NCBI RefSeq assembly: GCF_000331995.1
Contig: NC_020134.1
Coordinates: forward strand, 1,401,465 to 1,465,464
Direction of reading: 5' to 3'
From: Thermoclostridium stercorarium subsp. stercorarium DSM 8532
GTDB lineage: Bacteria; Bacillota; Clostridia; DSM-8532
DNA length: 64,000 nucleotides
The position numbers and the translations under genes were made by a program. Below the pieces are notes generated by a model that worked only from the letters and a program-made list of their open reading frames with translations, did no database searches and was not told the DNA's origin. Below, piece after piece: positions 31,963-45,609 of the stretch. Position 1 is the first letter of the stretch; each line of letters begins with the position of its first letter.

Positions 31963-32516
31963 ATGTAAAACCCCAACGTAATGTAAATTATTCCATTAGA
32001 ATACCTGATTTAATGATATAGGATTTATTCATTAAAATCAAGCGTAAATGCAGCAATAAAGCTTGCAGAAGAGATTATCTGAAAGCATGTTCGAGTATGT
32101 TTTTACTTTCAATGTTTCCTGTAACTTCTTGACGGTCTTAATGTTGTACTCTTAACAAAATGAATGTCTCTGAGATTATAAAATATATAGAAAATAAATA
32201 CATTCCAGCTATCTATGATGTTTATTGCTGCTTCCTAAAGAAGTAGATATTAATCAACATTAAACAATTCTCAATAAACGACAACTGTATAATGTATATG
32301 ATATGGAAAAATGATATTACAAACGATATAGCAAAATGATGAATGTTTCCGGCTGTGACAACTTATTAAAAAGGCTGGGATTAAACTTTCCAGATTGTTA
32401 TTATGAACACTTGTTAAGTTGAAATTCTGAAATTTTGGTGAATTACTAAAAATCTGGTTTATAGATTGAATTTACCGGAACCAGCCATAATAATACTATA
32501 CTCAAATCCTTACACT
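31963..32516. other. AT-rich intergenic region upstream of the recombinase gene
   Basis: About 550 bp, more AT-rich than its neighbours, presumably containing the recombinase promoter. A 28-codon frame on the + strand (32336-32422) has no recognised relative. A stretch at about 32283-32310 with the core ATAATGTATAT resembles the centre of bacterial dif sites but matches poorly outside it. No other gene was found. It could be the scar of an element. Confidence 0.4.
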
Positions 32517-32552
32517 CCACATTCAACGAAATTTTTATTTCGTTGAATGTGG
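32517..32552. repeat. Perfect 16-bp inverted repeat with TTTT loop
   Basis: The arm starting CCACATTCAACG (32517-32532) and its exact complement (32537-32552) are separated by TTTT. No U-tract follows on either strand, so it does not read as a terminator. It lies about 15 bp from the acyltransferase terminator. Confidence 0.75.
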
Positions 32553-32557
32553 TAAAT

Positions 32558-32589
32558 TAAAAAATAAGGAACGGTTATATTCCGTTCCT
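32558..32589 (-). terminator. Terminator of the acyltransferase-like gene
   Basis: On the - strand AGGAACGG, a 7-nt loop and CCGTTCCT are followed by TATTTTTT. It starts 12 bp past the stop codon. Confidence 0.88.
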
Positions 32590-32600
32590 ATTGCTTTTGT

Positions 32601-33755
32601 TTAATTTTTGTCGGAATTCAGTTCGGGGTTTTCGTTCAAATGCTTGATGTAACATCTTCTTCTTCTGTGCGGACGGGCCTCAAAAAAGCGCCATAATGAC
32701 TGAACCGCATGGTTGTATTCAAGCTGTGGTGAAGCAATGGCTTTTTTGACGCCGTTTTTGTGAGCATTTCTCAGGCAGCGGCTCAACATTGCCGCCGGGA
32801 CTCCGGTCATTTTATATTCGGGCCTTACGGCAACCAGGTATAAATCAAGAGTGTCATTTTTCTTGATAGCTTTGAGAATATCGATAAACCCAAACGGAAA
32901 AAGCCTTCCGTTATTTTTCTTCACTGCTTTCGACAGTGACGGGATAACAACCCCAAAGCCAACAAGCCTGTCGTCCTTATCAACTATAAGGCAGATATAA
33001 TCAGGGTTTACATAAGAAAAATACATATCAATGTAACCCTGGATTTGTTTATCGGTCAGTGTAACATATCCGTAAAGATCATTATACGCAATGTTTATAA
33101 TCTCAAACACTTCCCGTGCATAAGGCTTAATCTGCTTTTTATTTTTCAGATCAAGCATGCGGAGACCATATTTTTCAAAGGATCGGCTTGCTATTTTATT
33201 AATCCTTTCAATTTCGCTGCTTTCAGGCACAATAATTTCATGTTCAAGCCAGTCGACGTCCTTTACATAACCTAATCTTTCCAGGTGTTCTTTATAATAC
33301 GGATAATGATAATATGTTATAATTGTGCCCATTTCATCAAAACCTTCAACCAAGAGACCTTGGTGGTCCATATCACAGAAACCCAACGGTCCGTGAACTG
33401 CCTCCATCCCATTTTCTCTGGCATAGTTTTCCACAGTTCTGAACAATGCTTCCGAAACTTCGGGATCATCTATAAAATCCACCCATCCAAAACGGGTATA
33501 CTTATTTCCCCATTTTTGAACATAGGCATGATTCTGTATTCCGGCAATCCTCCCTACAAGTTTCCCGTTTTTATAGGCAAGCCAGTATTTGGCATCACAA
33601 TATTCAAAAGCGGGATTTTTTTTCCTGTTTAAAGTATTAAACTCATCCATTATGAGCGGAGGGACCCAGTACGGATTGTCCTTGTACAATTTAAACGGAA
33701 ACATAATAAAATCCTTTAATTGTTTTCTTGTTTTGACCTCAACTATTTCAACCAT
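32601..33755 (-). CDS. GNAT-like N-acyltransferase (hypothetical)
   Basis: A 384-aa protein resembling the YghO-like acyltransferase group. The N-terminal part shows FPFKLYKDNPYWVPPL and YWLAYKNGKLVGRIAGI, with the beta-4/beta-5 look of a GNAT fold. The C-terminal part has VGFGVVIPSLSKA and VRPEYKMTGVPAAM, which recalls the acyl-CoA pyrophosphate loop. The substrate is unknown. AGGAGGGG precedes the ATG. It is a single-gene unit with its own terminator. Confidence 0.7.
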   Translation of the reverse strand: MVEIVEVKTRKQLKDFIMFPFKLYKDNPYWVPPLIMDEFNTLNRKKNPAFEYCDAKYWLAYKNGKLVGRIAGIQNHAYVQKWGNKYTRFGWVDFIDDPEVSEALFRTVENYARENGMEAVHGPLGFCDMDHQGLLVEGFDEMGTIITYYHYPYYKEHLERLGYVKDVDWLEHEIIVPESSEIERINKIASRSFEKYGLRMLDLKNKKQIKPYAREVFEIINIAYNDLYGYVTLTDKQIQGYIDMYFSYVNPDYICLIVDKDDRLVGFGVVIPSLSKAVKKNNGRLFPFGFIDILKAIKKNDTLDLYLVAVRPEYKMTGVPAAMLSRCLRNAHKNGVKKAIASPQLEYNHAVQSLWRFFEARPHRRRRCYIKHLNENPELNSDKN

Positions 33756-33954
33756 CTTGTACCCCTCCTGAAAAAAATAGCCCCTAACGATATTAAGGCT
33801 CTGCTATTGTTGTATATTGCAAAAATATCTATTAAACCAATTATATCACATAAAATATGAATATAAAAACAGTTTATTTAAAACCAATAATAAGTGGATC
33901 TGGCTTAAAAAGGGAAAAATAAGCCCTTGAAATCGGCAGATTTTGGATATATCT

Positions 33955-34650
33955 TTACTCTGTGTGAGAAATGCTATGAAAGGTTGCTGAAACGAGCCGC
34001 GCCTGGACAATCAGCCTGTGAGTTGCCTTATATAGAGGATGACATGTAATAAGAGTTAATATACTTTCTGTCTTGCTTTTTTTAAGAACCGATACATCGT
34101 CAGGTTCGACAATCTGAATATTGAATACTTTGTATGTGTAATCAGCGTCAGCGGTGGATATTACTACAATGTCCCCTTCCTCCAGTTCGCCCAGCCTGTT
34201 AAAATTTCGCCCGTAAGCATGGCTTCGGTGAGCAGATATGGCGGTATTCCCTATCTGACCAATATCGGTTGTGCCTGTCAATTTCCCTGCACCAATTTTT
34301 AATATTTCGGGAGTGGCACCATCAATCACCGGCAAAAGCAAATTGATTTTTTCTATTTTAATCACACCCAGTACAGTATGGGATTTTTCATTTTCATTCA
34401 TCGTGTCTTCTGTCTCGCTTTCATTTAAATGAGAGAATATTTCATCAAGAGTAAGATAAGAATTTATCGCATCTTCATCCGTTTCAGAGGTATTTGCGGC
34501 GAACACACCGCTAAGTCGATGTGTTTTTGTCTCCTCTTCCCACTCTTTAAGAAGTTTTTTTTGCATGTATATCGTGTAAATATCCTTTACCACAGGATAC
34601 ATTGCAATTAATACACCTATAATTATCAGTAACACTGATTTAAACCTCAT
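33955..34650 (-). CDS. Sortase, class D-like
   Basis: Membrane transpeptidase that cleaves an LPXTG-like signal and links the protein to the wall or to another subunit. The 231-aa product has an N-terminal membrane anchor (about 5-22), a spacer, then the sortase barrel with His141 (AISAHRS), Cys203 (LITCHP) and Arg212 (THRLIVQ). The TLITCHP form fits class D or E sortases. Its likely substrate, the LPKTG protein, is the next gene upstream. A terminator hairpin lies between the two. Confidence 0.92.
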   Translation of the reverse strand: MRFKSVLLIIIGVLIAMYPVVKDIYTIYMQKKLLKEWEEETKTHRLSGVFAANTSETDEDAINSYLTLDEIFSHLNESETEDTMNENEKSHTVLGVIKIEKINLLLPVIDGATPEILKIGAGKLTGTTDIGQIGNTAISAHRSHAYGRNFNRLGELEEGDIVVISTADADYTYKVFNIQIVEPDDVSVLKKSKTESILTLITCHPLYKATHRLIVQARLVSATFHSISHTE

Positions 34651-34686
34651 TTTAACTCTCCCAACCTTATCTCAAGACAAATGATT

Positions 34687-34718
34687 AAAAAAACCAGCCG
34701 GAGTTTTGATACTCCGGC
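34687..34718 (-). terminator. Terminator between the LPXTG gene and the sortase gene
   Basis: On the - strand GCCGGAGT, a 6-nt loop and ACTCCGGC are followed by TGG and seven T. It is a strong hairpin inside an otherwise collinear cluster, so the sortase is either expressed at lower level by read-through or has its own promoter. Confidence 0.8.
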
Positions 34719-34726
34719 CAAGTGAA

Positions 34727-35632
34727 TCATTGTTTTGCTTTATTTCGATTAAGTCTTATTCCCGCGTATATTATACAAGCTCCAACCCCGAAGAATACTA
34801 TTGGAGGCAGTTCACCCGTTTTTGGAAGTCCTTTGGGTATTTCCCCGTCTTCGATAATTATTATCTCGGTTTCATTTGCATCATTACCCGGTTCGTCATT
34901 ATCATAACCGTCGGGTTCGCCGAAACTCGCAGGGATTTCTTCATCTTCTATTTCCACTGTTTCAGGCGTTTCCTGAGATATATCGGGCTGGTTTTGCTCC
35001 CCGGCTTCATCCGGTGGTGGTTGGGAAGGTACTGGTGTTACGCTCTGTGAAGGCGGTTCTATAGTTGGGGAAATGGGCGGCACCGTAGGTGTGTCGGATG
35101 GCCGCCTGTCATATTGCGCAGTAAGTATCCATCTTACTTTTAATGACGCTCCCTGATATTCGTTTCCAGTAGTTTCACCGGGGAGGTGAACGGTAAATGT
35201 CAGATCAACCGGCTCACCTTTTCTTATATCACCCACCAGAATATTTTCGTTAAATTTGCTAATCGGACCGTTGTGTAATACTCTCCCGTCTTCGTGAGTT
35301 ACCGTCAGTATAAGTCTGTCATCAAGGTTACCAATGATACCGTTTACGTCCTTTCCCGGTATTGATTCAACTATCTCGGAACGTATCCAAACACGAAGAG
35401 AGGATGCGCCACTTTCAGGCTCTATGGATATTGTCATCATGGAAGTTTTTGTATCCCCAGGTGTGAGATTCCCGGTGGGCACAGGGTTACCTGATAACTC
35501 CACTCTTAAACCGGTATCAGTTCCCACCACTTCTATGGCGTTTACCTGAATAATACAGAACGTACATAAAGCTGCCAGGGAAAAGGCCGTTATTAATACC
35601 GCTTTTGCCACAAGGTTTTTTTTGTTTGACAA
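34727..35632 (-). CDS. LPXTG cell-wall-anchored surface protein
   Basis: A 301-aa exported protein. A signal peptide (about 1-32) is followed by a beta-rich domain (about 35-170, ASSLRVWIRSEIV and LTFTVHLPGETTGNEYQG), which resembles the TasA/camelysin beta-sandwich found in its neighbours. A Pro/Thr/Glu-rich spacer (about 175-265) then leads to LPKTG, a hydrophobic helix and a basic tail. The last three elements are a complete sortase sorting signal. The next gene is the sortase, so this is the predicted anchored subunit. Confidence 0.9.
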   Translation of the reverse strand: MSNKKNLVAKAVLITAFSLAALCTFCIIQVNAIEVVGTDTGLRVELSGNPVPTGNLTPGDTKTSMMTISIEPESGASSLRVWIRSEIVESIPGKDVNGIIGNLDDRLILTVTHEDGRVLHNGPISKFNENILVGDIRKGEPVDLTFTVHLPGETTGNEYQGASLKVRWILTAQYDRRPSDTPTVPPISPTIEPPSQSVTPVPSQPPPDEAGEQNQPDISQETPETVEIEDEEIPASFGEPDGYDNDEPGNDANETEIIIIEDGEIPKGLPKTGELPPIVFFGVGACIIYAGIRLNRNKAKQ

Positions 35633-35670
35633 AAGACCACATCCTCTCCTGAGCCGGTTTTGACATATTT

Positions 35671-36764
35671 CTAATTAGCAAGTTTTATAACTCTCGTGGT
35701 ACCCGAAGTGATGGAGTAATTTCTGTCAACACTCAAAGTATATTCTCCTTTTCCGTTATTAAAAGATACCGTTATTTCAGCGGAAGCATACTCATCCGGG
35801 AATGGCCAGGGATAATCTGCTATTCTGTATTCCACTTTAAATCTCTGTTCGCCGGTAAATAGCTTGTTATCGCCGCCTCTTGCATTGGTAAAGCTTATTT
35901 TTATATGCGTTTTCTTATTTCCACCGCTTCTGTCAGAATCATGCTCAACTTTTACGTTATAATTAAACTTCTCCAATGTGGGTGCAGGTGTAGGGGTCGG
36001 AGTTGGTTCAGGCGTTGGTTCGGGTGTTGGCTCAGGCGTCGGTTCGGGTGTCGGTTCAGGAGTTGGTTCAGGAGTTGGTTCAGGTGTTGGTTCGGGCGTC
36101 GGTTCAGGTGTCGGTTCAGCGTCAGGGTTGTGATTGTAGCATTTGATATCATTTGGATTAATATTTAACCAATTTTTATACGGGAATTCATAACCTTCCG
36201 TGTTTACCTCTTCCCAGCCTTCTTCGCCCCATACAGCTGCAGGAGCGTTATTGGAGGACTGAACGGCTTCAGCTTTACCTTCTATTGTAAACTTAGCTCC
36301 CTGGTAATCATTTCTCCATCAAAGTATACAACCAAGCGAAGCTTTACAATATCTTCCGGTGATACGGGTCCGCCCATGTAATACACATATACCGGGTGTT
36401 CCGGACCTGTTTCATCTTCAGGCTGGTATAATACCCAGTTCGTGGTCGGGTGGGGTATAATAAATACATTATCGAGTTCCAGGTCATTATTCCATGACAG
36501 ATCAAGTATCGTACGCAATTCAACATCCGTTGTTCCTGTATTTTCAATATCATATTCCACAATGAAGCAGTCACCGGGGGTAATATTGTTGTAGTTTTTC
36601 TTTCCAAGTATTGTCGCACCATTGGCTTTAATATTAACCGTTCCTGCAATGAATACCGCATCGGTGGCTTCGGATTCATTGGTGAACCATGCCATCGTAG
36701 CACCGCCGATCAATGCAACGCATACCGCAATTGAAAGCATTATAAGTAACGTTTTCTTTTTCAT
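35671..36764 (-). pseudogene. TasA/CalY-like SipW-dependent exported protein, interrupted by a 1-nt frameshift
   Basis: Frame A (36764 to 36282) begins with a SipW-type signal (IGGATMAWFTN) and a TasA-like beta domain and stops early after LVVYFDGE. The -1 frame then continues with NDYQGAKFTIEGKAEAVQ, the normal ending of this domain, an SSNNAPAAVWGEEGWEEV segment, ten Glu-Pro units of a PEPT repeat and a 100-residue C-terminal domain ending in IKLAN at 35671. The change lies next to an AAA run on the - strand (36313-36311); adding one A restores a 364-aa frame. It could be a true mutation, phase variation, recoding or a sequencing error. The frame-A product alone would be 160 aa. The downstream part is open but has no good start. 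Confidence 0.85.
35982..36120 (-). repeat. PEPT (12-bp) tandem repeats in the TasA-like gene
   Basis: The unit GGnTC(A/G)GGnGT(T/C) repeats about ten times and codes Pro-Glu-Pro-Thr on the - strand. It makes an extended linker between the TasA-like domain and the C-terminal domain. Such runs can change length by slippage. Confidence 0.9.
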
Positions 36765-37002
36765 ATATTAGCACTCTCCTTGTAAATATATTTTTATTTG
36801 GAACATTTTACAGGCAGTTGCCTTAACCGCAGGTCCGTCATGTTTTTTGCACTTCGTATACAGCAAAAACACATCTGTTAATAAGTAATATACCAATGTG
36901 CATTCCTTTTCTTTTGCCTTTGCCCTGGTGTTGAGGCTGCCATCATCATTTCATACTCTCATTTTTCACCCCCGTTTTCATGTCTTTTATAACTTCCAAA
37001 CC
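36765..37002. other. Gap between two TasA-like genes
   Basis: About 240 bp inside the surface operon. It holds the ribosome site AAGGAGAG for the downstream gene. No terminator, promoter or small gene stands out. Confidence 0.35.
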
Positions 37003-37491
37003 CTAATCCCAATTCAGCTGAGAAGCTTCCAGAGTAAGTTTAATCGTATACTCCGCCGAATTGTAACTTTCGTCGATACTATCCATCTTCAGCCAGACAT
37101 CAAAGTCTATATCAACGGATTGATTTGGAGAAACAGCTTCCTGGTAAAAATAATATTCTCCCTGTTTATACCAGCCACTATGTTTCTGTTCCCAGATTGC
37201 TATATCGTTCAGAAATTCTGGGTTCCATTCGCCTTCGATTTTTATCCGTACCCATGCTGGATGGTTTCCGACATTTTTAAAAGACCACTTAATTTCTTTT
37301 GCGTTTTGTCTGCCAGGAAGCCAGTTATCTGTGTCTTCCGTAAGATTGTCCAGTTCCATTTCCAGAACGCCCGTGGTAAAGAACACTTGGAATTTATCAG
37401 ATCTGTCATAAAAATATGATATGGTTAAACCGCTTAACATTATGAATACTGTCAAGCACAGCAACATGTATACTATTATCGTTTTTTTCAT
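37003..37491 (-). CDS. TasA/camelysin-like SipW-dependent exported protein
   Basis: A 162-aa protein starting with a SipW-type signal (MKKTIIVYMLLCL, then a short linker to ISYFYDRSDKF) and a single beta-sandwich domain (TTGVLEMELDNL, FKNVGNHPAWVRIKIEGEW, DFDVWLKM). In B. subtilis such proteins form matrix fibres or regulate them. ATG 37491 is preferred to the TTG ten codons upstream, although GGAGG is 14 nt away. It sits between sipW and the frameshifted TasA-like gene. Confidence 0.85.
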   Translation of the reverse strand: MKKTIIVYMLLCLTVFIMLSGLTISYFYDRSDKFQVFFTTGVLEMELDNLTEDTDNWLPGRQNAKEIKWSFKNVGNHPAWVRIKIEGEWNPEFLNDIAIWEQKHSGWYKQGEYYFYQEAVSPNQSVDIDFDVWLKMDSIDESYNSAEYTIKLTLEASQLNWD

Positions 37492-37528
37492 GGAAAACCG
37501 GAAAACCTCCTTACACGACAAGTACGCC

Positions 37529-38122
37529 TCAGGTACCTGGTTTTATATTCCCGTCAACTTCAGATTTGTATTTTTTTCTTACTTTTAACAGCCCGGCAAT
37601 CTGAGTAACCAAAATAATAAACACAGGGATTAACATTACAGTGAAAATCCCGTTTTTAGTTCTTATAAATGCCATCACATATCCCAGCTTTGGAATGGAA
37701 AGAACAACCTTGCCAATTAAAAAATTCTCAGCAACGGGAGTGGGATCATTCATGTTGTTTGCGTCCCCTTTTGTTATGAACTGTCTTGTATTGTTTTCCT
37801 CAATTATTTCTACAACCCTGTGTGTGGTTGGTACCGAGTCATTTTTCTTTTTGAAGGTAATAATATCCCCCACCTTGACGGATTGCGGATTGATGACTTT
37901 AACGATTATAACGCTGCCGGTTTTAAATGTCGGACTCATACTGTCACTTTGAACGATGTATATCTGGTGATTAAAAACGGTTGGCTGTTCATTGTTTCTC
38001 ATTCCGGTAAAAATCAAAAACAGCATATATATGACAAAAAACAATAAAAAAAGTGATACGACAGTGCTTAACGCATTAAGAACTGTCTTTGCCGCCGGTT
38101 TTTTCTCTCTTTCAGGTGCCAT
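37529..38122 (-). CDS. sipW: Signal peptidase I, SipW (ER) type
   Basis: Cleaves the special signal peptides of TasA/CalY-like proteins. The 197-aa product has a membrane helix near each end (about 20-40 and 160-180). The catalytic Ser61 is in SDSMSPTF and His101 in VPTTHRVV; the histidine in place of lysine marks the SipW/ER subgroup. D is in KGDANN. The second ATG (38122) is chosen because GGGGGAG lies 6 nt upstream. Its substrates are the flanking genes. Confidence 0.94.
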   Translation of the reverse strand: MAPEREKKPAAKTVLNALSTVVSLFLLFFVIYMLFLIFTGMRNNEQPTVFNHQIYIVQSDSMSPTFKTGSVIIVKVINPQSVKVGDIITFKKKNDSVPTTHRVVEIIEENNTRQFITKGDANNMNDPTPVAENFLIGKVVLSIPKLGYVMAFIRTKNGIFTVMLIPVFIILVTQIAGLLKVRKKYKSEVDGNIKPGT

Positions 38123-38161
38123 ACAGAGCTCCCCCATTTCCTTGTTTATTTCATCTGAATG

Positions 38162-38467
38162 TTAATTCTGAATGTTAAAATCAGTTACGACATCCTCTTG
38201 CGGAACATAAAGCAAAGTGTCGCCGTAAACGTCATCGGATACGGTATGGGGTATCTTTGTATCGGTACGAGGGAGCAGCTGCTCAATGATACTTCGGTAT
38301 ACATCATCAGTGACGGTCAGTTTGATTATGTCATGCTGACGAGTGCTGAAATATGCTTTTGTATTCATAACTGTCGTCAACAGTCCTACTGAAGCCGCAA
38401 CCAAGGAAATAACCACAATAACCGATTTTTTACAAAAACCGGCTTTAATTTTTTGTTTTAGTGTCAT
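38162..38467 (-). CDS. Small CalY/TasA-like exported protein (101 aa)
   Basis: Begins with a basic segment, a hydrophobic helix and TKAYFSTRQHD, the pattern of SipW-dependent signals. Only about 60 residues follow, too short for a whole TasA domain, so it may be a truncated or minor subunit. GGGAGGG lies 5 nt before ATG 38467; the frame stays open to 38614 but the extra residues are not exported-protein-like. First confident gene of the surface operon, 39 nt before sipW. Confidence 0.75.
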   Translation of the reverse strand: MTLKQKIKAGFCKKSVIVVISLVAASVGLLTTVMNTKAYFSTRQHDIIKLTVTDDVYRSIIEQLLPRTDTKIPHTVSDDVYGDTLLYVPQEDVVTDFNIQN

Positions 38468-38623
38468 GAATTCCCTCCCCCGGCTCAAATCCCGTTGTCT
38501 CCGGTATTTCCATTTCATTGATAAATTCTTCAGGTCTGTTCCCTTGAAGCAGCTTCGCCGATTGAAAAAATCAATTCCATTAAACTTCGGAAACACACAG
38601 TTTTTATTTTTCAATCCATTGTA

Positions 38624-38740
38624 TTATTTGCTGGATGATATAATTTTGACGGTATATCTTGACAAAAAAGAGGTGTTTTCTGTTTTCTCGTCTGAATAAT
38701 TGGCAGTCTGCCCAACAGGTTGTTTCAATGTCACAATCAT
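38624..38740 (-). CDS. Possible small peptide (36-38 aa) in the surface operon leader
   Basis: A short frame starting at ATG 38740 or GTG 38734 and ending with TAA at 38624-38626. CCGGGAG lies about 8 nt before the GTG. The peptide is polar with many Ser, Thr and Lys and no signal or membrane segment. No relative recognised; it could be chance. Confidence 0.3.
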   Translation of the reverse strand: MIVTLKQPVGQTANYSDEKTENTSFLSRYTVKIISSSK

Positions 38741-38858
38741 CTCTCCCGGTTTTTAATGTATAATACTGGTCATAATTCACTCATTCAGCGCTTACATCTC
38801 AGTCAGACCAAAATCAAACAATTATTTAAGCGTTGCAGATTTTTTAATCATACTTTAA

Positions 38859-38912
38859 ATTATATTGAGGACACTCACAATTTATTCTTTTTTCAGTCAC
38901 ATTTCAGTCATA
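38859..38912 (-). promoter_or_regulatory. Candidate promoter with 11-bp-register direct repeats
   Basis: On the - strand TATGACTGAAA (38912-38902) and TGTGACTGAAA (38901-38891) are direct repeats in perfect 11-bp register, and TGTGAGTG begins again two registers later (38879). Seven bases after that comes TATAAT (38864-38859). No good -35 box is present. This is the layout of SARP/BTAD activator promoters, where heptameric repeats 11 bp apart end about 8 bp before the -10 box. Confidence 0.5.
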
Positions 38913-39020
38913 CTTTTTACCGGTAATTTTAGACTTAAAAAGGGTGAAATTGATTTAATTTGTAATATAGTTATATGAAAACAGAATTAAAATCATGGAT
39001 AATAAAAATAAATCTAAGGG

Positions 39021-39049
39021 CAAAAAAAACACCCCTACCTTCGGGGTGT
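39021..39049 (-). terminator. Terminator of the DUF1538/P-II operon
   Basis: On the - strand AACACCCC, a 7-nt loop and GGGGTGTT are followed by a run of T. It lies 40 bp after the P-II stop. Confidence 0.92.
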
Positions 39050-39088
39050 TCGCAATTTAAAGAATAGCCTAAAAATTATTGCCACAAT

Positions 39089-39781
39089 TTATTCTTTTTC
39101 ATTATTGGTTTTATTGTGTGAATCGGCAAGGCCTCTGACCTCTGCCACCGGTTCTACAAATAAAATCCCGTTCCCGGGAACGTCCAACTGAAGTTCCCTG
39201 TATAATTCATCGGCAACCTTACTTACCAGGTCGCTGGGCATAAGGATTATAACCAGTTCCTTTTCAGGCACTATTTCAACACCAAATAATTTTTCGGTAA
39301 ACTCCGAACCCGTTCCACGACCGTGTATGACAGTTCCTCCTTTGACACCGGCTTTTCTTGCAATTTCCATTACACTGTCGGCCATACCGCGATTCACAAT
39401 GACGGTCATTTTTTTATACATACTGTCTCCCTCCATATTTTGGGCTATATTCAATGTATCCTGCTTACCGTTAATTATCTGCTCTGCCAATGTTGCATAT
39501 GTTACATATGCAATTCCATGCCCGGGTTCATTGAGCTGGAGTTCTTCCGCAAAGTAATCAAGCAGCTCTTTCGCCCTTTCTTTTTCCACCATTATGCTTA
39601 CAATTTCTCTTCTCTGGCTTTTTATTCCAAACAAATTCAAAGTCGCACTGTTAACAGTACCTTTACCGATTATTGCAGTTCCTCCGTGGATATCCTTATC
39701 CCTGGCGATACGACTGAACCTATGACACTGTTGTTCGCTTAAAATCAGCGTAATAATTTGAAACTCGTATTCACTTGTCAT
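39089..39781 (-). CDS. Tandem P-II family regulatory protein
   Basis: A 230-aa protein made of two P-II-like halves. Each has the alpha-beta core and a G-x-G-rich strand: IHGGTAIIGKGTVNSA with LNEPGHGIAYV in the first (about 5-100), and VKGGTVIHGRGTGSE with LDVPGNGILFV in the second (about 118-215). No conserved uridylylation tyrosine was seen in the loop region. P-II proteins sense nucleotides and 2-oxoglutarate and gate transporters. The ATG directly follows the stop of the DUF1538 membrane protein, so the two are almost certainly partners. Confidence 0.88.
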   Translation of the reverse strand: MTSEYEFQIITLILSEQQCHRFSRIARDKDIHGGTAIIGKGTVNSATLNLFGIKSQRREIVSIMVEKERAKELLDYFAEELQLNEPGHGIAYVTYATLAEQIINGKQDTLNIAQNMEGDSMYKKMTVIVNRGMADSVMEIARKAGVKGGTVIHGRGTGSEFTEKLFGVEIVPEKELVIILMPSDLVSKVADELYRELQLDVPGNGILFVEPVAEVRGLADSHNKTNNEKE

Positions 39782-41299
39782 TTATTTATTACCTCCGATT
39801 GATCGCTTTTTTGAAACCGAAAGTTTCGATGCCTTTTTTGATTTTGCCTGGTAGAGTGCACCAAGTAATTCTATCGCAATTATGGGCATCATTGCAACAA
39901 TTGCTATCATTCCAAATCCGTCAGCGACCACATCAGCAGTTGGAATTTGTGCGGCAATTCCCTGAACAAAAGCAAGCGAAAAAGTGGCCGTCATCGGCCC
40001 TGAAGCAACCCCTCCCGCGTCAAAAGCCATGCCTACGAAAAGATCAGGAACAAAGAAAGCCAATAAAACCGAAAGTCCAAACCCCGGAAGCAAATACATC
40101 CAGAGCTGTATATCGGGTATCAGGATTCTGAGTGCTGACATAAAAATTGACAGACCTACAGCCACTGAAAGGAATATAAGTACCAGAATACGTCTGACAG
40201 AACCACCGGTAATTTCCTCAACATCGCTTGTTAATACGTGGACTGCAGGCTCAGACAGAACAGTGGTAAGCCCGAGCAGTAAAGCCACAATCAGAACCGG
40301 GCCCCTGGATTCCATTGAAGCAAGCTGCATTCCAAGCTGGGCGCCAACTTCCATAAACCCGCCGTTAACACCAAGAAGGAATATAACAAGGCCGATATAT
40401 GTTAACACCAAACCGCGGACGATATCTATTACCTTGCTTTTTTTATGTTTGAAGAAAAATATCTGAAAAATTATGTATGTCACAATAATCGGGAGCAGAG
40501 TAATAAATGAATCCCATACAATTGTTAAAAATTTGGAACGGTATATTTCCCACAATGTGGCATTTGTTAAGTCGGTTGCCGGGAGGATCCCATTCAGTTT
40601 GCCGCCCTTGATAAAAAGGCTGGTAATCAGAACTCCCAATATGGCTCCCGTTGAAGAGATGCCTACAAGTCCGAAACTGTCGGCTTCACTCATTTTGCTG
40701 TCTTTTTTCATTGCCGAAAAACCTGCTGCCATGGCCAGCATAAAAGGAACGGTGATGGCACCTGTGGTGGCTCCTGAAGCATCAAAAGCTATAGCAAGAA
40801 AATCAGATGTTGAAAATAACGCAATAATGAAAATAAGTCCATACGCGCCAGCAAATACATATTTCAAACGTATATTTGACAGAATGCGCAACAATCCGAG
40901 AGTCATCATGACTCCGATTCCGACTGAGACAACAACAACCATGAGAATATTGTCAAACTGCCCTGACGTTACACTATCCACCTGTTTTGCGAGTATGTGC
41001 ACGTCGGGTTCTGCATAGGAAATGAAAAATCCTAATATCAGCATAACAAATATTATTACCGCTAAGTTATTACTTTTTGTGACAGCGTTTCCCACGCCAT
41101 GACCTATAGGCTCAATTCCCTGGCTTATTCCGAACAGGAAAACGGTAAGTCCGACAATAACAAGGGCGGAACCTATCAGAAATGCATACAACATATTAGG
41201 TTCCAGAGGACATATTGTGAAATGCAGTATTAAAACAATTGTTGTGATTGGCAGCACTGAAGCAAGTACTTCTTTCAGTTTTCCTGTTAACTCACTCAA
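39782..41299 (-). CDS. DUF1538 membrane protein (duplicated), probable P-II-regulated permease
   Basis: A 505-aa protein with many hydrophobic helices, made of two related halves. SYAEPDVHIL and AIAFDASGATTGAITVPF in the first half correspond to LSEPAVHVLT and GMAFDAGGVASGPMTATF in the second. The inverted or tandem repeat layout is typical of transporters. The ion or solute is unknown. The start is TTG at 41299 after AGGGTGA. Its stop abuts the tandem P-II gene, which probably controls it. Confidence 0.85.
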   Translation of the reverse strand: MSELTGKLKEVLASVLPITTIVLILHFTICPLEPNMLYAFLIGSALVIVGLTVFLFGISQGIEPIGHGVGNAVTKSNNLAVIIFVMLILGFFISYAEPDVHILAKQVDSVTSGQFDNILMVVVVSVGIGVMMTLGLLRILSNIRLKYVFAGAYGLIFIIALFSTSDFLAIAFDASGATTGAITVPFMLAMAAGFSAMKKDSKMSEADSFGLVGISSTGAILGVLITSLFIKGGKLNGILPATDLTNATLWEIYRSKFLTIVWDSFITLLPIIVTYIIFQIFFFKHKKSKVIDIVRGLVLTYIGLVIFLLGVNGGFMEVGAQLGMQLASMESRGPVLIVALLLGLTTVLSEPAVHVLTSDVEEITGGSVRRILVLIFLSVAVGLSIFMSALRILIPDIQLWMYLLPGFGLSVLLAFFVPDLFVGMAFDAGGVASGPMTATFSLAFVQGIAAQIPTADVVADGFGMIAIVAMMPIIAIELLGALYQAKSKKASKLSVSKKRSIGGNK

Positions 41300-41420
41300 G
41301 TCATCACCCTTTTCCCTTGAATATTTATGTAAATTACAGCCGACGATATTTTATCATTAAAAATTAAAAATTTTTAGTAGATATTTGTAAATTTTTTTTT
41401 AATTTTTTATAATACATGTA

Positions 41421-42605
41421 TTACGCCGGTATCGACGTATGAATTTTTACATCAATATCATATATGTGTATGTTTTTGTTAAAGCGTCTGATTATTCTGT
41501 CCATTATTGCATGAATTTGCTTATAATCCATTCCCAGAAGCAAAATAAGTATCCTGTTAGTGTCCCAGGTAGTGACTACATCCCCCTTTCTGAGCGATTT
41601 TATCAGGCTTTTCCTGAATTCATCGAAAATTTCTGAACTCTCGTTTACCGTTATCGAAACAACATATACCTGTTGACTTGTTCTTTCGCTGCGCCTTTTT
41701 TCAAGAATGAAGAGCGAATGGAACATGTTTCTGTCACAGTAAAATGCCCCTTCGGAAATTTCATCGGCAGGACATTTCTCGGTAAAAACACTGGTATTTA
41801 CTTCATCTACGATATTTCTTAACTGCTTATAGATCTGTTGCAGTTCATAAGTCGGTTTTATTCCAAACTGTCTGTATAGCATTGAAGTATATAATTCATA
41901 ATGATTCTGTGCCTCTTTAATCCTCCCTTTTCCTATCAGATTTTCCATAAGACTGATATGTAAATCTTCTTCATAGGCTTCTATCTGTATTGCCCTTTCA
42001 CAAATTTTTATACCGCTGTCGTAATCCTTTTTCTGCCTGTAGAGTTTTACCAGTTCAAGTACTGACTGAATATACAGTCTTCGATAGTAGTTCCTTTTGG
42101 GAATTACCCAATCTGCATATACAAGTTCGGGGAAATAATCACCGTGGTAGAGTTCCAGTGCCTTTTCATAGTAATTTATGGCTTCATCGGGTTTTTCATT
42201 TTTCAGGAGTTCCGCTTTCTGTATGCATTCCTCGAAAAAATCGGTGTCAAGGAAGAAATTATCGTTAAAGTAAAGGGAATAGCAGCCGTTATTATATACA
42301 ATATTACAGCCTAAGTTGCTGAAAAATTCTTCGTGAGATAAAATCTTACGCAGACGGTATATAATGTTTTGCAGTGTGTTTTTCGGATTTTCATATTCTT
42401 CATTCGGATACAAATTTTCAAGGATGGTTTCAGGCGGTATTCTTTTTCCCTTGTTTAAAAGAAGGTATTTGAAAAGACACCACAGTTTGGTTGACCTGCC
42501 GGATATATTGTAAAATCCTTTTTCCTTATGGTAAATTTCAAACCTTCCCAGAGTAAAAATCATAAGCCTGCACGGGTCTTTTCCCTTAGCTGCTTCCGTA
42601 AGCAT
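41421..42605 (-). CDS. BTAD (SARP-type) transcriptional regulator
   Basis: A 394-aa DNA-binding protein. An OmpR-like winged helix (about 12-95, FEIYHKEKGFYNISGRSTKLW) precedes the bacterial transcriptional activator domain (about 100-250, TPR-like, with LELYHGDYFPELVYADWV). The last 120 residues contain SLRKGDVVTTWDTNRILILL, which has the shape of a degenerate GGDEF or cyclase core (LRxxDvvtRwGxDxFlvlL) without the signature. Activators of this group bind direct repeats. Candidate targets are the surface operon and the adjacent dockerin-like gene, but this is inference. Confidence 0.85.
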   Translation of the reverse strand: MLTEAAKGKDPCRLMIFTLGRFEIYHKEKGFYNISGRSTKLWCLFKYLLLNKGKRIPPETILENLYPNEEYENPKNTLQNIIYRLRKILSHEEFFSNLGCNIVYNNGCYSLYFNDNFFLDTDFFEECIQKAELLKNEKPDEAINYYEKALELYHGDYFPELVYADWVIPKRNYYRRLYIQSVLELVKLYRQKKDYDSGIKICERAIQIEAYEEDLHISLMENLIGKGRIKEAQNHYELYTSMLYRQFGIKPTYELQQIYKQLRNIVDEVNTSVFTEKCPADEISEGAFYCDRNMFHSLFILEKRRSERTSQQVYVVSITVNESSEIFDEFRKSLIKSLRKGDVVTTWDTNRILILLLGMDYKQIHAIMDRIIRRFNKNIHIYDIDVKIHTSIPA

Positions 42606-42670
42606 TGTTTTCCCTCCAGATTAAAGCTGTAAGGTTAAAAATTTCCTATGTTTTTAATATTACTCAGTAT

Positions 42671-42710
42671 ATTATACCATATTTATGATAAATTACGGGT
42701 AATTATTACC
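42671..42710 (-). promoter_or_regulatory. Candidate promoter and operator of the BTAD gene
   Basis: TATAAT (42676-42671 on the - strand) is preceded, 21 bp upstream, by a perfect palindrome GGTAAT-A-ATTACC (42698-42710). No -35 hexamer is visible, so the palindrome probably marks a regulator site. Confidence 0.4.
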
Positions 42711-42775
42711 ATAACTTGTTTATTTAACGTAAACTGTACCGATTTGTAACAAAATATAATACCGATACGGGAAAT

Positions 42776-42804
42776 ATAAAAAAATAATCACCCTGGCGGG
42801 TGAT
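42776..42804 (-). terminator. Terminator of the dockerin-like gene
   Basis: On the - strand ATCACCC, loop GCCA and GGGTGAT are followed by TATTTTTTTA. It lies about 65 bp past the stop codon. Confidence 0.88.
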
Positions 42805-42869
42805 AAACAAAACATTTATCATCTTTTCAGGTGGATTTTATTTCCTTAATACCTTATAAATTATCAAGA

Positions 42870-44360
42870 CTAAAAACGTTTGCGCCATTCCTTCATAAAT
42901 TTTTCACAGTCAAAATCATCAAAGTCAAAATCAAACCAGTTATGGTTATTGAACCATCTTATCTTAAAATGATTAGCGGTAAACGGGTTAAAAACTTTCC
43001 ACAGTGTCTCCAGATCTTTCATATCAAGCTTTCGGTTTTTGAATTCGTCGGGGTTTATGTTAAACCCTTCTTTTTCATACCTTTCCGCAATTACCTTTGC
43101 CAATTCAATTAAATCAAAAATGTTAACATATCCGTCTTCGTTGAGATCGTATTTTTTAGGGATATCAACACCGGATTTTGGAACGGGAGTAGGTTTCTGC
43201 CCCGCTTTTTTGCCGATAAGCTCAAGATCCACTGCATTAATGTTTGTATTGCTGGTTTTGACCGGTGTTGCATTCTTTATATCCCTTTCGGTGCCGTTCT
43301 TATTGTAATAACCTTCATTAATATACTCCGTATTCTTTGTAACAATTTTGTATGAAACAATGTAACTGGTCGATGTTACAGGTACTGTCAGAGCATAGTC
43401 TGCTGAATTGGAATTGGCTGGGATTGTTACCGTTTTACTGAAACTGAAATCATCGGAAGCTGACGATTTTACATTGTTGTTGTAAGCCGTTATTGTAATC
43501 TCGATACCGTTTTTCGGGGCTTTTTCATTATTTGGAAGGTAAACCCTGCCGGTAATGTTTGTAAACGGCAAAGTAGTTAAATCAATATTCTCGGCTGTAT
43601 TGGCCACGTCTATAAGTGTTACTTTTTCCCCGTTCCTTGAAGTCCCGTTTTTGTGGAAATAACCTGTTTCCTTATATCCTTGATTTTCATAGGTATAATA
43701 AACCTTATACCCTTTATTTACGTCGTTGATGGGAACAACAAGCTCGTATGGAGCATTGCTGCTGTTTGCCTTCAGTATTATTTCTTTACTGATAATTATG
43801 TCGTCATCGGTTGAGTTTGCCTTTGGGCCCTCCTGAACTGCGGTTACGACGAATTTTAAGTCATTCATGGGTTTTGTTGACGGATTACCGTGAATGATCT
43901 TCCCTGAAATAGTTCTCCCGGGCAACAGTTCAATATTAACGCCTGAAACGTCGCCTCCGTTTACGTCAATTAATGTTCTGTTTTCCTTTATTGCGGTGGT
44001 TTTTTCTTTGCTGTACCATCCAAAAGGTGCATATCCCTTTTCAACAGTATAGTATACGTAGTATTTTGCTTTTGCGTTCTGACTTTTTGGAACCTGAACG
44101 CTGTATGCAATAGATTTTTGGCCTTTAGGAATTATAATTTCGGTTGTAACTAATTTATCGTCATTTTTATTTTCGGGGGTATTATTGTCGGTGCCAATGG
44201 TCAGTTTTACCTTAACCCCGCCCGAAGGAGCGGTATCATTACCGGGTAATGAAATAACACCGCTTACGGCAGAATGACTGCTTGCTGCGACACTCCTGAC
44301 CTGGAACAACGGCATTAATAAACATGCGATTAACAGTAATGACACAATTTTCTTATCCAT
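42870..44360 (-). CDS. Exported three-repeat protein with dockerin-like EF-hand segment
   Basis: A 496-aa exported protein with no recognised catalytic domain. A signal peptide (about 1-26) is followed by three related beta-rich repeats of about 110 residues starting at AVSGVISLP, TISGKIIHG and NITGRVYLP. Each ends near GWYSK, GYFHK or GYYNK and a TLIDV-like turn. Residues about 403-450 form a dockerin-like region: DLNEDGYVNIFDLIELAK is a complete calcium loop plus helix, while the second copy (KLDMKDLETLWK) has lost most loop ligands. A Trp/Phe/Asp-rich tail follows. GGAGG, 5 nt upstream, fixes ATG 44360. Cellulosomal docking is possible but a single-loop dockerin would be weak. Confidence 0.75.
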   Translation of the reverse strand: MDKKIVSLLLIACLLMPLFQVRSVAASSHSAVSGVISLPGNDTAPSGGVKVKLTIGTDNNTPENKNDDKLVTTEIIIPKGQKSIAYSVQVPKSQNAKAKYYVYYTVEKGYAPFGWYSKEKTTAIKENRTLIDVNGGDVSGVNIELLPGRTISGKIIHGNPSTKPMNDLKFVVTAVQEGPKANSTDDDIIISKEIILKANSSNAPYELVVPINDVNKGYKVYYTYENQGYKETGYFHKNGTSRNGEKVTLIDVANTAENIDLTTLPFTNITGRVYLPNNEKAPKNGIEITITAYNNNVKSSASDDFSFSKTVTIPANSNSADYALTVPVTSTSYIVSYKIVTKNTEYINEGYYNKNGTERDIKNATPVKTSNTNINAVDLELIGKKAGQKPTPVPKSGVDIPKKYDLNEDGYVNIFDLIELAKVIAERYEKEGFNINPDEFKNRKLDMKDLETLWKVFNPFTANHFKIRWFNNHNWFDFDFDDFDCEKFMKEWRKRF

Positions 44361-44699
44361 GGCTACCTCCAATTCCATTTTTATACAGTTATTAATTTGA
44401 AAATTTTATATTGTAATGGAATTCCTTATACATATTGTAATTAGAAAAAGTTAATATTAATATTAAATTTTGGTTTCAGATGAATTAAATTTAATTATCA
44501 CCTCCCAAAATTTACTCCGCACATTTCCGATATATATCTTTGACACGGGGAATTTAACAATAGTTCCCAAGAAAACTAAATTGAAATAAAGAATGAATAT
44601 AATTGTAAAAAAGCAAAAAGGGAATTGAATGAGAGATGTCTTATTTTGCTTTTTTCTTATATCCAGAATTTTCAGCCTTTTTATTGGTATCAACGGAGT
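44361..44699. other. AT-rich gap upstream of the dockerin-like gene
   Basis: About 340 bp. It contains the 12-bp inverted repeat at 44607-44655. A 76-codon open frame on the - strand (44463-44693) is AT-driven and lacks a ribosome site, so I do not call it. Promoter boxes are not clear. Confidence 0.35.
44607..44655. repeat. 12-bp inverted repeat, possible bidirectional terminator
   Basis: AAAAAAGCAAAA (44607-44618) and TTTTGCTTTTTT (44644-44655) are exact complements 25 nt apart. The stem is very AT-rich and the loop long, so termination activity is uncertain. It lies 45 bp past the prepilin peptidase stop. Confidence 0.4.
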
Positions 44700-45494
44700 T
44701 TATAAAAGCATTCCGACGTACCAGGCAAAAAATTCATTGCCGAAAAGAATGGACAGAAATGTCCCCATCACAATGAAGGGCCCGAAAGGGATATGACTTT
44801 TCCGGTGCTTGAGTCCCGTTATTATCAGAAAAAGACCCGTAATACCGCCGATAAATATTGAGAATACCAGTGATATCACTGAGAGTTTCAGGCCAAGAAT
44901 TAACCCTATAGGGAGGAAGATTTTCACATCACCCATACCGAAAGCGTCTGTACCGTATATCGCCAGACCTATAAGCGCAACCAGAAGAAGGAATCCTGAA
45001 GTAGCAAGCATTCCGAGAATGGGTGAATACCACTGGGAATCGCCGACAAGTGCGTCATCAAACCAAAACCGCAGCACGAAAAGCGCAATACCGCCGATCA
45101 GACCAGCAATTACCAGTTCATTTGGAATTATCATATGTTCCAGATCAATAAAAAACACCATCAGAAGTATGGACATGAGGAAGACGGTAAAAATAAATTC
45201 AACGGATAATCCAAATTTAATGTATAAGATAACGAAAACAACACCTGTAACAAGTTCGACGAGAGGATAGCGGAAAGAAATTTTACAGCCGCAATAACGG
45301 CATTTTCCCCTTAAAAATATGAAACTGAAAACCGGAATTAAATCATATGCTTTAAGTTTGGCGCCGCACGAAGGACAGAAAGAACGGGGCGCTATTATTG
45401 ATTTACCCTCCGGCAGCCGATAAATAACCACATTAAAAAAAGATCCGAAAATAAGACCTGTTATGAAAATTAACAACGGTACTAATACATTCAT
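44700..45494 (-). CDS. Type 4 prepilin peptidase (A24 family)
   Basis: Membrane aspartic peptidase that cleaves and N-methylates prepilins. The 264-aa product has an N-terminal domain with two CxxC pairs (CPSCGAKL and CRYCGCKI, likely zinc) and multiple helices. The catalytic Asp pair is in FFIDLEHMIIPNE and GMGDVKIFLP. ATG 45494 is chosen; the frame begins seven codons upstream at GTG. No pilin, PilB or PilC gene is near, so its substrates are elsewhere. Confidence 0.9.
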   Translation of the reverse strand: MNVLVPLLIFITGLIFGSFFNVVIYRLPEGKSIIAPRSFCPSCGAKLKAYDLIPVFSFIFLRGKCRYCGCKISFRYPLVELVTGVVFVILYIKFGLSVEFIFTVFLMSILLMVFFIDLEHMIIPNELVIAGLIGGIALFVLRFWFDDALVGDSQWYSPILGMLATSGFLLLVALIGLAIYGTDAFGMGDVKIFLPIGLILGLKLSVISLVFSIFIGGITGLFLIITGLKHRKSHIPFGPFIVMGTFLSILFGNEFFAWYVGMLL

Positions 45495-45609
45495 AGAGCT
45501 AACCCAAAACCTCACTTTTTAATTCTCACTATTCTAATCTAATAATCGGAACATTTAATGGTATATTTTACTGCCGGGCAAAAATAATATATTTTTTAAC
45601 AAACATGGT

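Follow-up and report, generated by a model that had tools for sequence, protein, structure and literature searches.

The signal peptidase SipW cleaves signal peptides of the TasA type. Present papers call the assembly of TasA-type fibres sortase-independent, and the attachment of such fibres to the cell still wants an explanation. Here we describe a locus in a 64,000-nucleotide window (the whole stretch of DNA that was analysed) of the complete 2.97-Mb genome of Thermoclostridium stercorarium (G000), in which sipW and genes for TasA-like proteins are followed by genes for an LPXTG-type wall protein and a sortase (38467-33955, minus strand). We consider it probable that the locus encodes a fibre of the SipW/TasA type together with a covalent wall anchor for it, and that the sortase attaches a TasA-fold base to peptidoglycan.

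TasA fibres as published are donor-strand polymers and not cross-beta amyloid (PMC9674648), which does not support the amyloid-like fibre that an earlier note on this stretch had proposed. The tapA-sipW-tasA operon of Bacillus subtilis shares with the present locus SipW, a small donor-like protein, and SipW-type subunits of the TasA fold which have aromatic residues just past the cleavage site and donor-strand-like N-termini. The present locus differs in encoding, in addition, a TasA-fold protein with an LPXTG tail, in many cases a sortase, and further subunits that bear a C-terminal or an inserted domain; it lacks the immunoglobulin (Ig) domain of TapA. In Clostridium perfringens, the sortase gene srtB lies beside sipW (sipW-bsaABCRSD; PMC7395162), and SipW, a BsaA-family subunit and the position of the sortase gene are common to both loci. 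However, its BsaA has no LPXTG motif, no LPXTG anchor of the TasA fold is described, and a two-component regulator is present (PMC7395162). The TasA-CalY-CapP system of Bacillus cereus also has TasA-type subunits; its wall-associated helper is CapP, whereas LPXTG is absent from the text of PMC13082335 and no LPXTG anchor is mentioned. Sortase-assembled pili resemble the locus in sortase wall attachment and in a class C-related enzyme. The subunits here, in contrast, have no sorting signals, and the sortase would anchor rather than polymerise them. A search of the open-licence literature by title, abstract and word counts brought up no account of a TasA-fold protein with an LPXTG tail. Such a family beside sipW would be a specific answer to the question of fibre attachment and would join two surface systems that have been described separately.

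Read 5' to 3' along the minus strand, the genes encode in turn: small SipW-type protein, SipW, BsaA/TasA-like protein, TasA/M73 protein with an out-of-frame remainder, LPKTG protein, sortase. A GNAT gene, a conserved neighbour of the locus, adjoins the sortase downstream. The features, with the evidence in brackets (G and L numbers are our handles for genomes and loci), are:

38162..38467, minus: small SipW-type exported protein, 101 amino acids (homologues beside sipW in G026, G024 and G018)
37529..38137, minus: SipW-type signal peptidase (TIGR02228, NF046067, conserved motifs)
37003..37491, minus: BsaA/TasA-like SipW-type protein (TIGR04090; alignment with three relatives; in-frame TTG start upstream at 37521)
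36282..36764, minus: main TasA-like protein, first part (PF12389; frameshift)
35671..36312, minus: out-of-frame remainder of the main TasA-like gene (frame-2 translation; single intact gene in G026 and G015)
34727..35632, minus: predicted TasA-fold wall anchor, 301 amino acids (family alignments, predicted structure, fold matches)
35093..35545, minus: anchor ectodomain, modelled TasA-fold part (AlphaFold and structure comparison)
34730..34828, minus: LPKTG sorting signal, i.e. LPKTG, membrane span and basic tail (profile match, E 3e-16)
34694..34721, minus: terminator-like hairpin in the gap between anchor and sortase (terminator scan and RNA folds)
33955..34650, minus: class C-related sortase (PF04203, NF033745, PDB 7cg9)
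36765..37002, minus: site where relatives hold an extra TasA-like gene with a discoidin-like insert, empty here (L030, L031, L033, L034)
38536..38646, minus: remains of the small cytoplasmic gene that relatives carry ahead of the locus (tblastn, frame breaks and a stop)

All genes that the earlier note had placed in this collinear block are thus present, and its recognition of SipW was correct: the protein scored 120.7 bits with TIGR02228 (cut-off 51.85) and has the conserved SxSMSPxF and TTHR motifs. With NF046067, the Bacillus SipW model, it reached 120.5 bits, under the cut-off of 190.

The LPKTG protein and its predicted fold

The LPKTG protein consists of an ordinary signal peptide, a TasA-like ectodomain, an acidic, proline-rich linker and an LPKTG sorting signal. 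It has the signal peptide, LPXTG motif, membrane span and basic tail of LPXTG wall proteins: LPKTGELPPIVFFGVGACIIYAGIRLNRNKAKQ. Its signal is of the AxA type, followed by IEVVG, and no SipW-type cleavage site was found. The LPKTG tail is the only confident LPXTG tail in the genome; the next match (E 0.39) does not cover the motif columns. PF00746 did not match the tail of the window protein, and the tails of the relatives pass the cut-offs of PF00746 and TIGR01167.

A model of the full-length protein from five sequences was poor (mean predicted local distance difference test, pLDDT, 56) and was superseded by a deeper alignment of the ectodomain. From the latter (25 sequences), AlphaFold returned a model with pLDDT 91.3 and a predicted template modelling score (pTM) of 0.84. 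In the comparison of the ectodomain profile with the PDB, the two best matches were both TasA (the crystal structure 5of1, E 4e-4, and the fibre 8aur, E 6e-4). With Foldseek, the only match to the ectodomain below 1e-3 was again the TasA fibre 8aur (E 2e-5). VIA-align gave 8aur a Z of 9.6 (136 aligned residues, root-mean-square deviation 2.7 Å) and 5of2/5of1 a Z of 8.0; the remaining rows were at or below 7.7. Neither Pfam nor NCBIfam has a model for the anchor ectodomain as such, and one relative's anchor (L051) passes Pfam M73 with 25.3 against a cut-off of 22.5. These comparisons indicate that the ectodomain has a predicted TasA jelly-roll fold, as the earlier note had suspected.

The aligned part of TasA starts at residue 43 and thus past the donor strand, which comprises residues 28-38 (PMC9674648). 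Accordingly, a donor-like signature is rare in the anchors: it occurs in 2 of 27, compared with 38 of 45 TasA-like subunits, counts which are descriptive because the signature is a regular expression of our own. The anchors do hold a short conserved N-terminal strand (e.g. IEVVG) and hence some N-terminal arm.

Recurrence of the anchor beside sipW

The block occurs with the same gene order in four relatives from the same family (G024, G015, G018, G026), although contig ends truncate it in two of these. In all, the order sipW-(tasA-like)n-anchor was seen, with little variation, in about 25 loci (about 20 besides the relatives), mostly from Clostridia and with one Bacillaceae genome among them. 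Such a cluster is present in many anaerobic Gram-positive bacteria. A chance arrangement can be rejected because the same order recurs in the four relatives and in about 20 further loci. The co-occurrence of sipW, TasA-like, LPXTG and sortase genes in relatives, which the earlier note had named as the test of its proposal, was therefore found. The sortase gene directly follows the anchor gene in nine loci across families, including that of an Alteribacillus (Bacillaceae) genome.

Apart from the relatives of the window, about 22 of 80 named SipW loci contained a match to a hidden Markov model of the ectodomain. Since these loci had been chosen by SipW, this gives the frequency of the anchor among SipW loci and not the reverse. 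For the reverse, 243 genomes of the class were searched by the anchor alone, with at least 76 bits required for a strong anchor (weaker matches, among them ordinary TasA-like proteins, were left out of the count) and E<=1e-25 for SipW. Strong anchors were present in nine genomes from eight families. All nine have SipW, compared with 31 of the 243 overall, and in all nine the anchor lies within about 5 kb of sipW; a sortase is also present in every one of them (136 of 243 overall). The alignments and searches indicate that the anchor is a recurrent family tied to sipW and without an existing name, and this association is well supported. The finding is real and recurrent, and its interest is greater as a family than as the single damaged copy in the window.

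In two further genomes (G064:C57:91821-93125 and G062:C17:85028-86965), a sortase gene adjoins sipW and no LPXTG TasA-fold anchor was detected, as for C.perfringens.

TasA-like subunits and the state of the window copy

The earlier note had counted three TasA-like substrates of SipW. Two of them stand, one of which is frameshifted; the third is the small SipW-type protein, which has no TasA domain. Of the two, the 172-residue protein matched TIGR04090 (E 7e-6, under the model cut-off) when read from 37521 to 37003. It has a donor-like N-terminus, SYFYDRSDKFQVFFTTG, and aligns with proteins from three relatives. The other, at 36764-36282, passes PF12389 (TasA/M73; 50.9 bits, E 2e-13, cut-off 22.5) and TIGR04088 (19.9, cut-off 19), and its donor N-terminus is AWFTNESEATDAVFIAGTV. 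None of the TasA-like subunits read here carries an LPXTG tail. Polymerisation of the subunits by the sortase is therefore unlikely, and a sortase-assembled pilus was ruled out.

The small protein of 101 residues has a SipW-type signal, the N-terminus TKA|YF..., two DDVY-type motifs and a short tail. Its homologue in G026 was found by tblastn (E 2e-18), and searches of Pfam and NCBIfam gave no match. It differs from TapA in that no Ig domain was matched and little room is left for an Ig-like domain. Judging by its N-terminus, it is possibly a donor-only initiator akin to the N-terminus of TapA, a fraction of which is enough for biofilm structuring according to work as cited in PMC9674648.

Three-frame translation, tblastn and alignment showed that the open reading frames 36764-36282 and 35976-35671 are halves of one gene, broken by a 10-nucleotide deletion near 36312, which was placed by comparison with the sequence of G018. 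The remainder encodes the last TasA strand, NDYQGAKFTIEG, a proline-rich repeat linker (tandem repeat 35999-36119) and a C-terminal beta domain. A sequencing error is the less likely cause of the frameshift, as the break is a 10-nucleotide deletion and not a homopolymer slip. Two more elements of the locus are affected. An additional TasA-like gene, containing a discoidin-like insert, is present in all four relatives that have the block, and tblastn found no separate copy of it in the window. In addition, a small upstream gene, kept in the three relatives in which that region is covered (G018, G024, G026), is reduced in the window to a broken remnant (38646-38536). In G024 the locus is intact, and so it is in G026, G015 and G018 within the limits set by contig ends. 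The window copy is thus partly degraded, and as the main fibre gene is frameshifted the fibre system is probably impaired in this strain. That the locus is here a decaying relic which makes no fibre at all has a substantial chance of being correct, if somewhat under even, and would be compatible with the anchored fibre as the best explanation for the relatives. The deletion, the missing discoidin-type gene and the upstream remnant speak for decay, whereas the genes for SipW, the 172-residue TasA-like protein, the anchor and the sortase are undamaged, and the 172-residue protein could still polymerise.

The discoidin-type subunits of the relatives lie at L030:5883-7082, L031:4827-5957, L033:1050-2234 and L034:2762-3865, and the insert follows the first strands. 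It has a weak F5/8-C match, and such a subunit could possibly display a binding domain on the fibre. The small cytoplasmic protein before the locus (L030:4087-4362, L031:2886-3263, L034:1001-1300) has the conserved motif SIQGxIQWxExKKTxxFRSxMELI; neither Pfam nor NCBIfam matched the L030 copy, and NCBIfam did not match the L031 copy.

Proposed anchoring of the fibre and alternatives

The sortase (PF04203, 115 bits, E 2e-33) has TLITC and THRL motifs and matches PDB 7cg9 (E 5e-25). Its best class score was 143.5 bits with the class C model NF033745, under the cut-off of 160. The class D model gave 86.9 bits (cut-off 165) and the LPxTATN SrtD model 102.1 (cut-off 140), so the class D assignment of the earlier note was ruled out. 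By these scores the enzyme is class C-related, nearer to C than to D; its chain stops shortly past the last strand, without a second, C-terminal membrane span. In G000 and G024, one sortase and one LPXTG tail each were detectable, both inside the locus, with unusual sorting motifs possibly overlooked in the tail search.

A mechanism can be proposed as follows. SipW would process both the TasA-like subunits and the small protein at their SipW-type signals, and the subunits would polymerise outside the cell, each N-terminal strand inserting into the next subunit by analogy with TasA. The LPKTG anchor would be exported through the ordinary signal peptidase and bind the fibre with its TasA-fold domain. 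The adjacent sortase would then link the LPKTG tail to peptidoglycan and so tether the fibre. The attachment of a fibre base by the sortase, as suggested in the earlier note, is kept as the best reading. Its basis is gene content and order, recurrence, the predicted fold of the anchor, the lack of a canonical donor sequence therein and the pairing of one sortase with one LPXTG protein. A more far-reaching and rather doubtful version is a chaperone-free donor-strand fibre with dedicated ends, widespread in Clostridia and also present in some Bacilli: the donor-only small protein would start it, give-and-take TasA-like subunits would extend it, and the sortase-fixed, acceptor-only anchor would end it.

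Several observations weigh against anchoring of the fibre by the sortase. Contact between anchor and fibre is an inference. Self-complemented FimA structures align from residue 1 of the anchor model in VIA-align; the modelled domain may therefore fill its own groove with the short N-terminal strand, which would leave no place for a donor. A sortase gene next to the anchor is missing from most anchor loci, and in this genome the main subunit gene is frameshifted. In C.perfringens, deletion of srtB altered neither BsaA polymers nor pellicles (PMC7395162), and TasA/CalY assembly in B.cereus was termed sortase-independent in a 2026 paper (PMC13082335). Finally, the terminator-like hairpin at 34721-34694 parts the anchor gene from the sortase gene. 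Two relatives share its stem, but its T-run was seen in the window only (RNA folds of the window, L030 and L033). It may lower the expression of the sortase, which could alternatively be transcribed from a promoter of its own. Of the operon that had been proposed, the collinear genes stand; a single transcript is not supported, as the hairpin precedes the sortase.

The possible self-complementation, the ordinary signal peptide and the fibres that form without sortase in C.perfringens and B.cereus would also suit an anchor that stands alone, i.e. a wall-bound TasA-fold receptor or adhesin which shares only its regulation with a secreted TasA matrix and has no place in the fibre. We regard this as unlikely, since the anchor shows homology to the subunits encoded next to it and, in each of the strong cases examined, has sipW and TasA-like genes as neighbours. 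Still less probable is that the sortase is the general sortase of the genome, here by accident and linked to the fibre by position only: it is the sole sortase found in the genome, many anchor loci must use a sortase encoded elsewhere and the hairpin precedes its gene, but neither G000 nor G024 yielded a second LPXTG protein, the gene directly follows the anchor in the nine loci mentioned, and in a tree the sortases of anchor loci cluster together, apart from same-family sortases (support moderate, 86/80, with some long branches).

As to the surroundings, no Rfam RNA reached its gathering score in window positions 32500-43000, and matches in a promoter scan were no commoner than in shuffled sequence. 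A BTAD/SARP-type regulator is encoded at 41421-42605 (minus strand), separated from the locus by a DUF1538 gene and a P-II-like gene. In G018 (L031:1346-2656) and G026 (L034:62-580), genes for similar proteins immediately precede the locus, so this regulator may control it. Further upstream are an open reading frame of 502 amino acids that neither Pfam nor NCBIfam matched at the thresholds applied (42870-44378, minus strand) and a type IV prepilin peptidase gene (44700-45515, minus strand; PF06750/PF01478).

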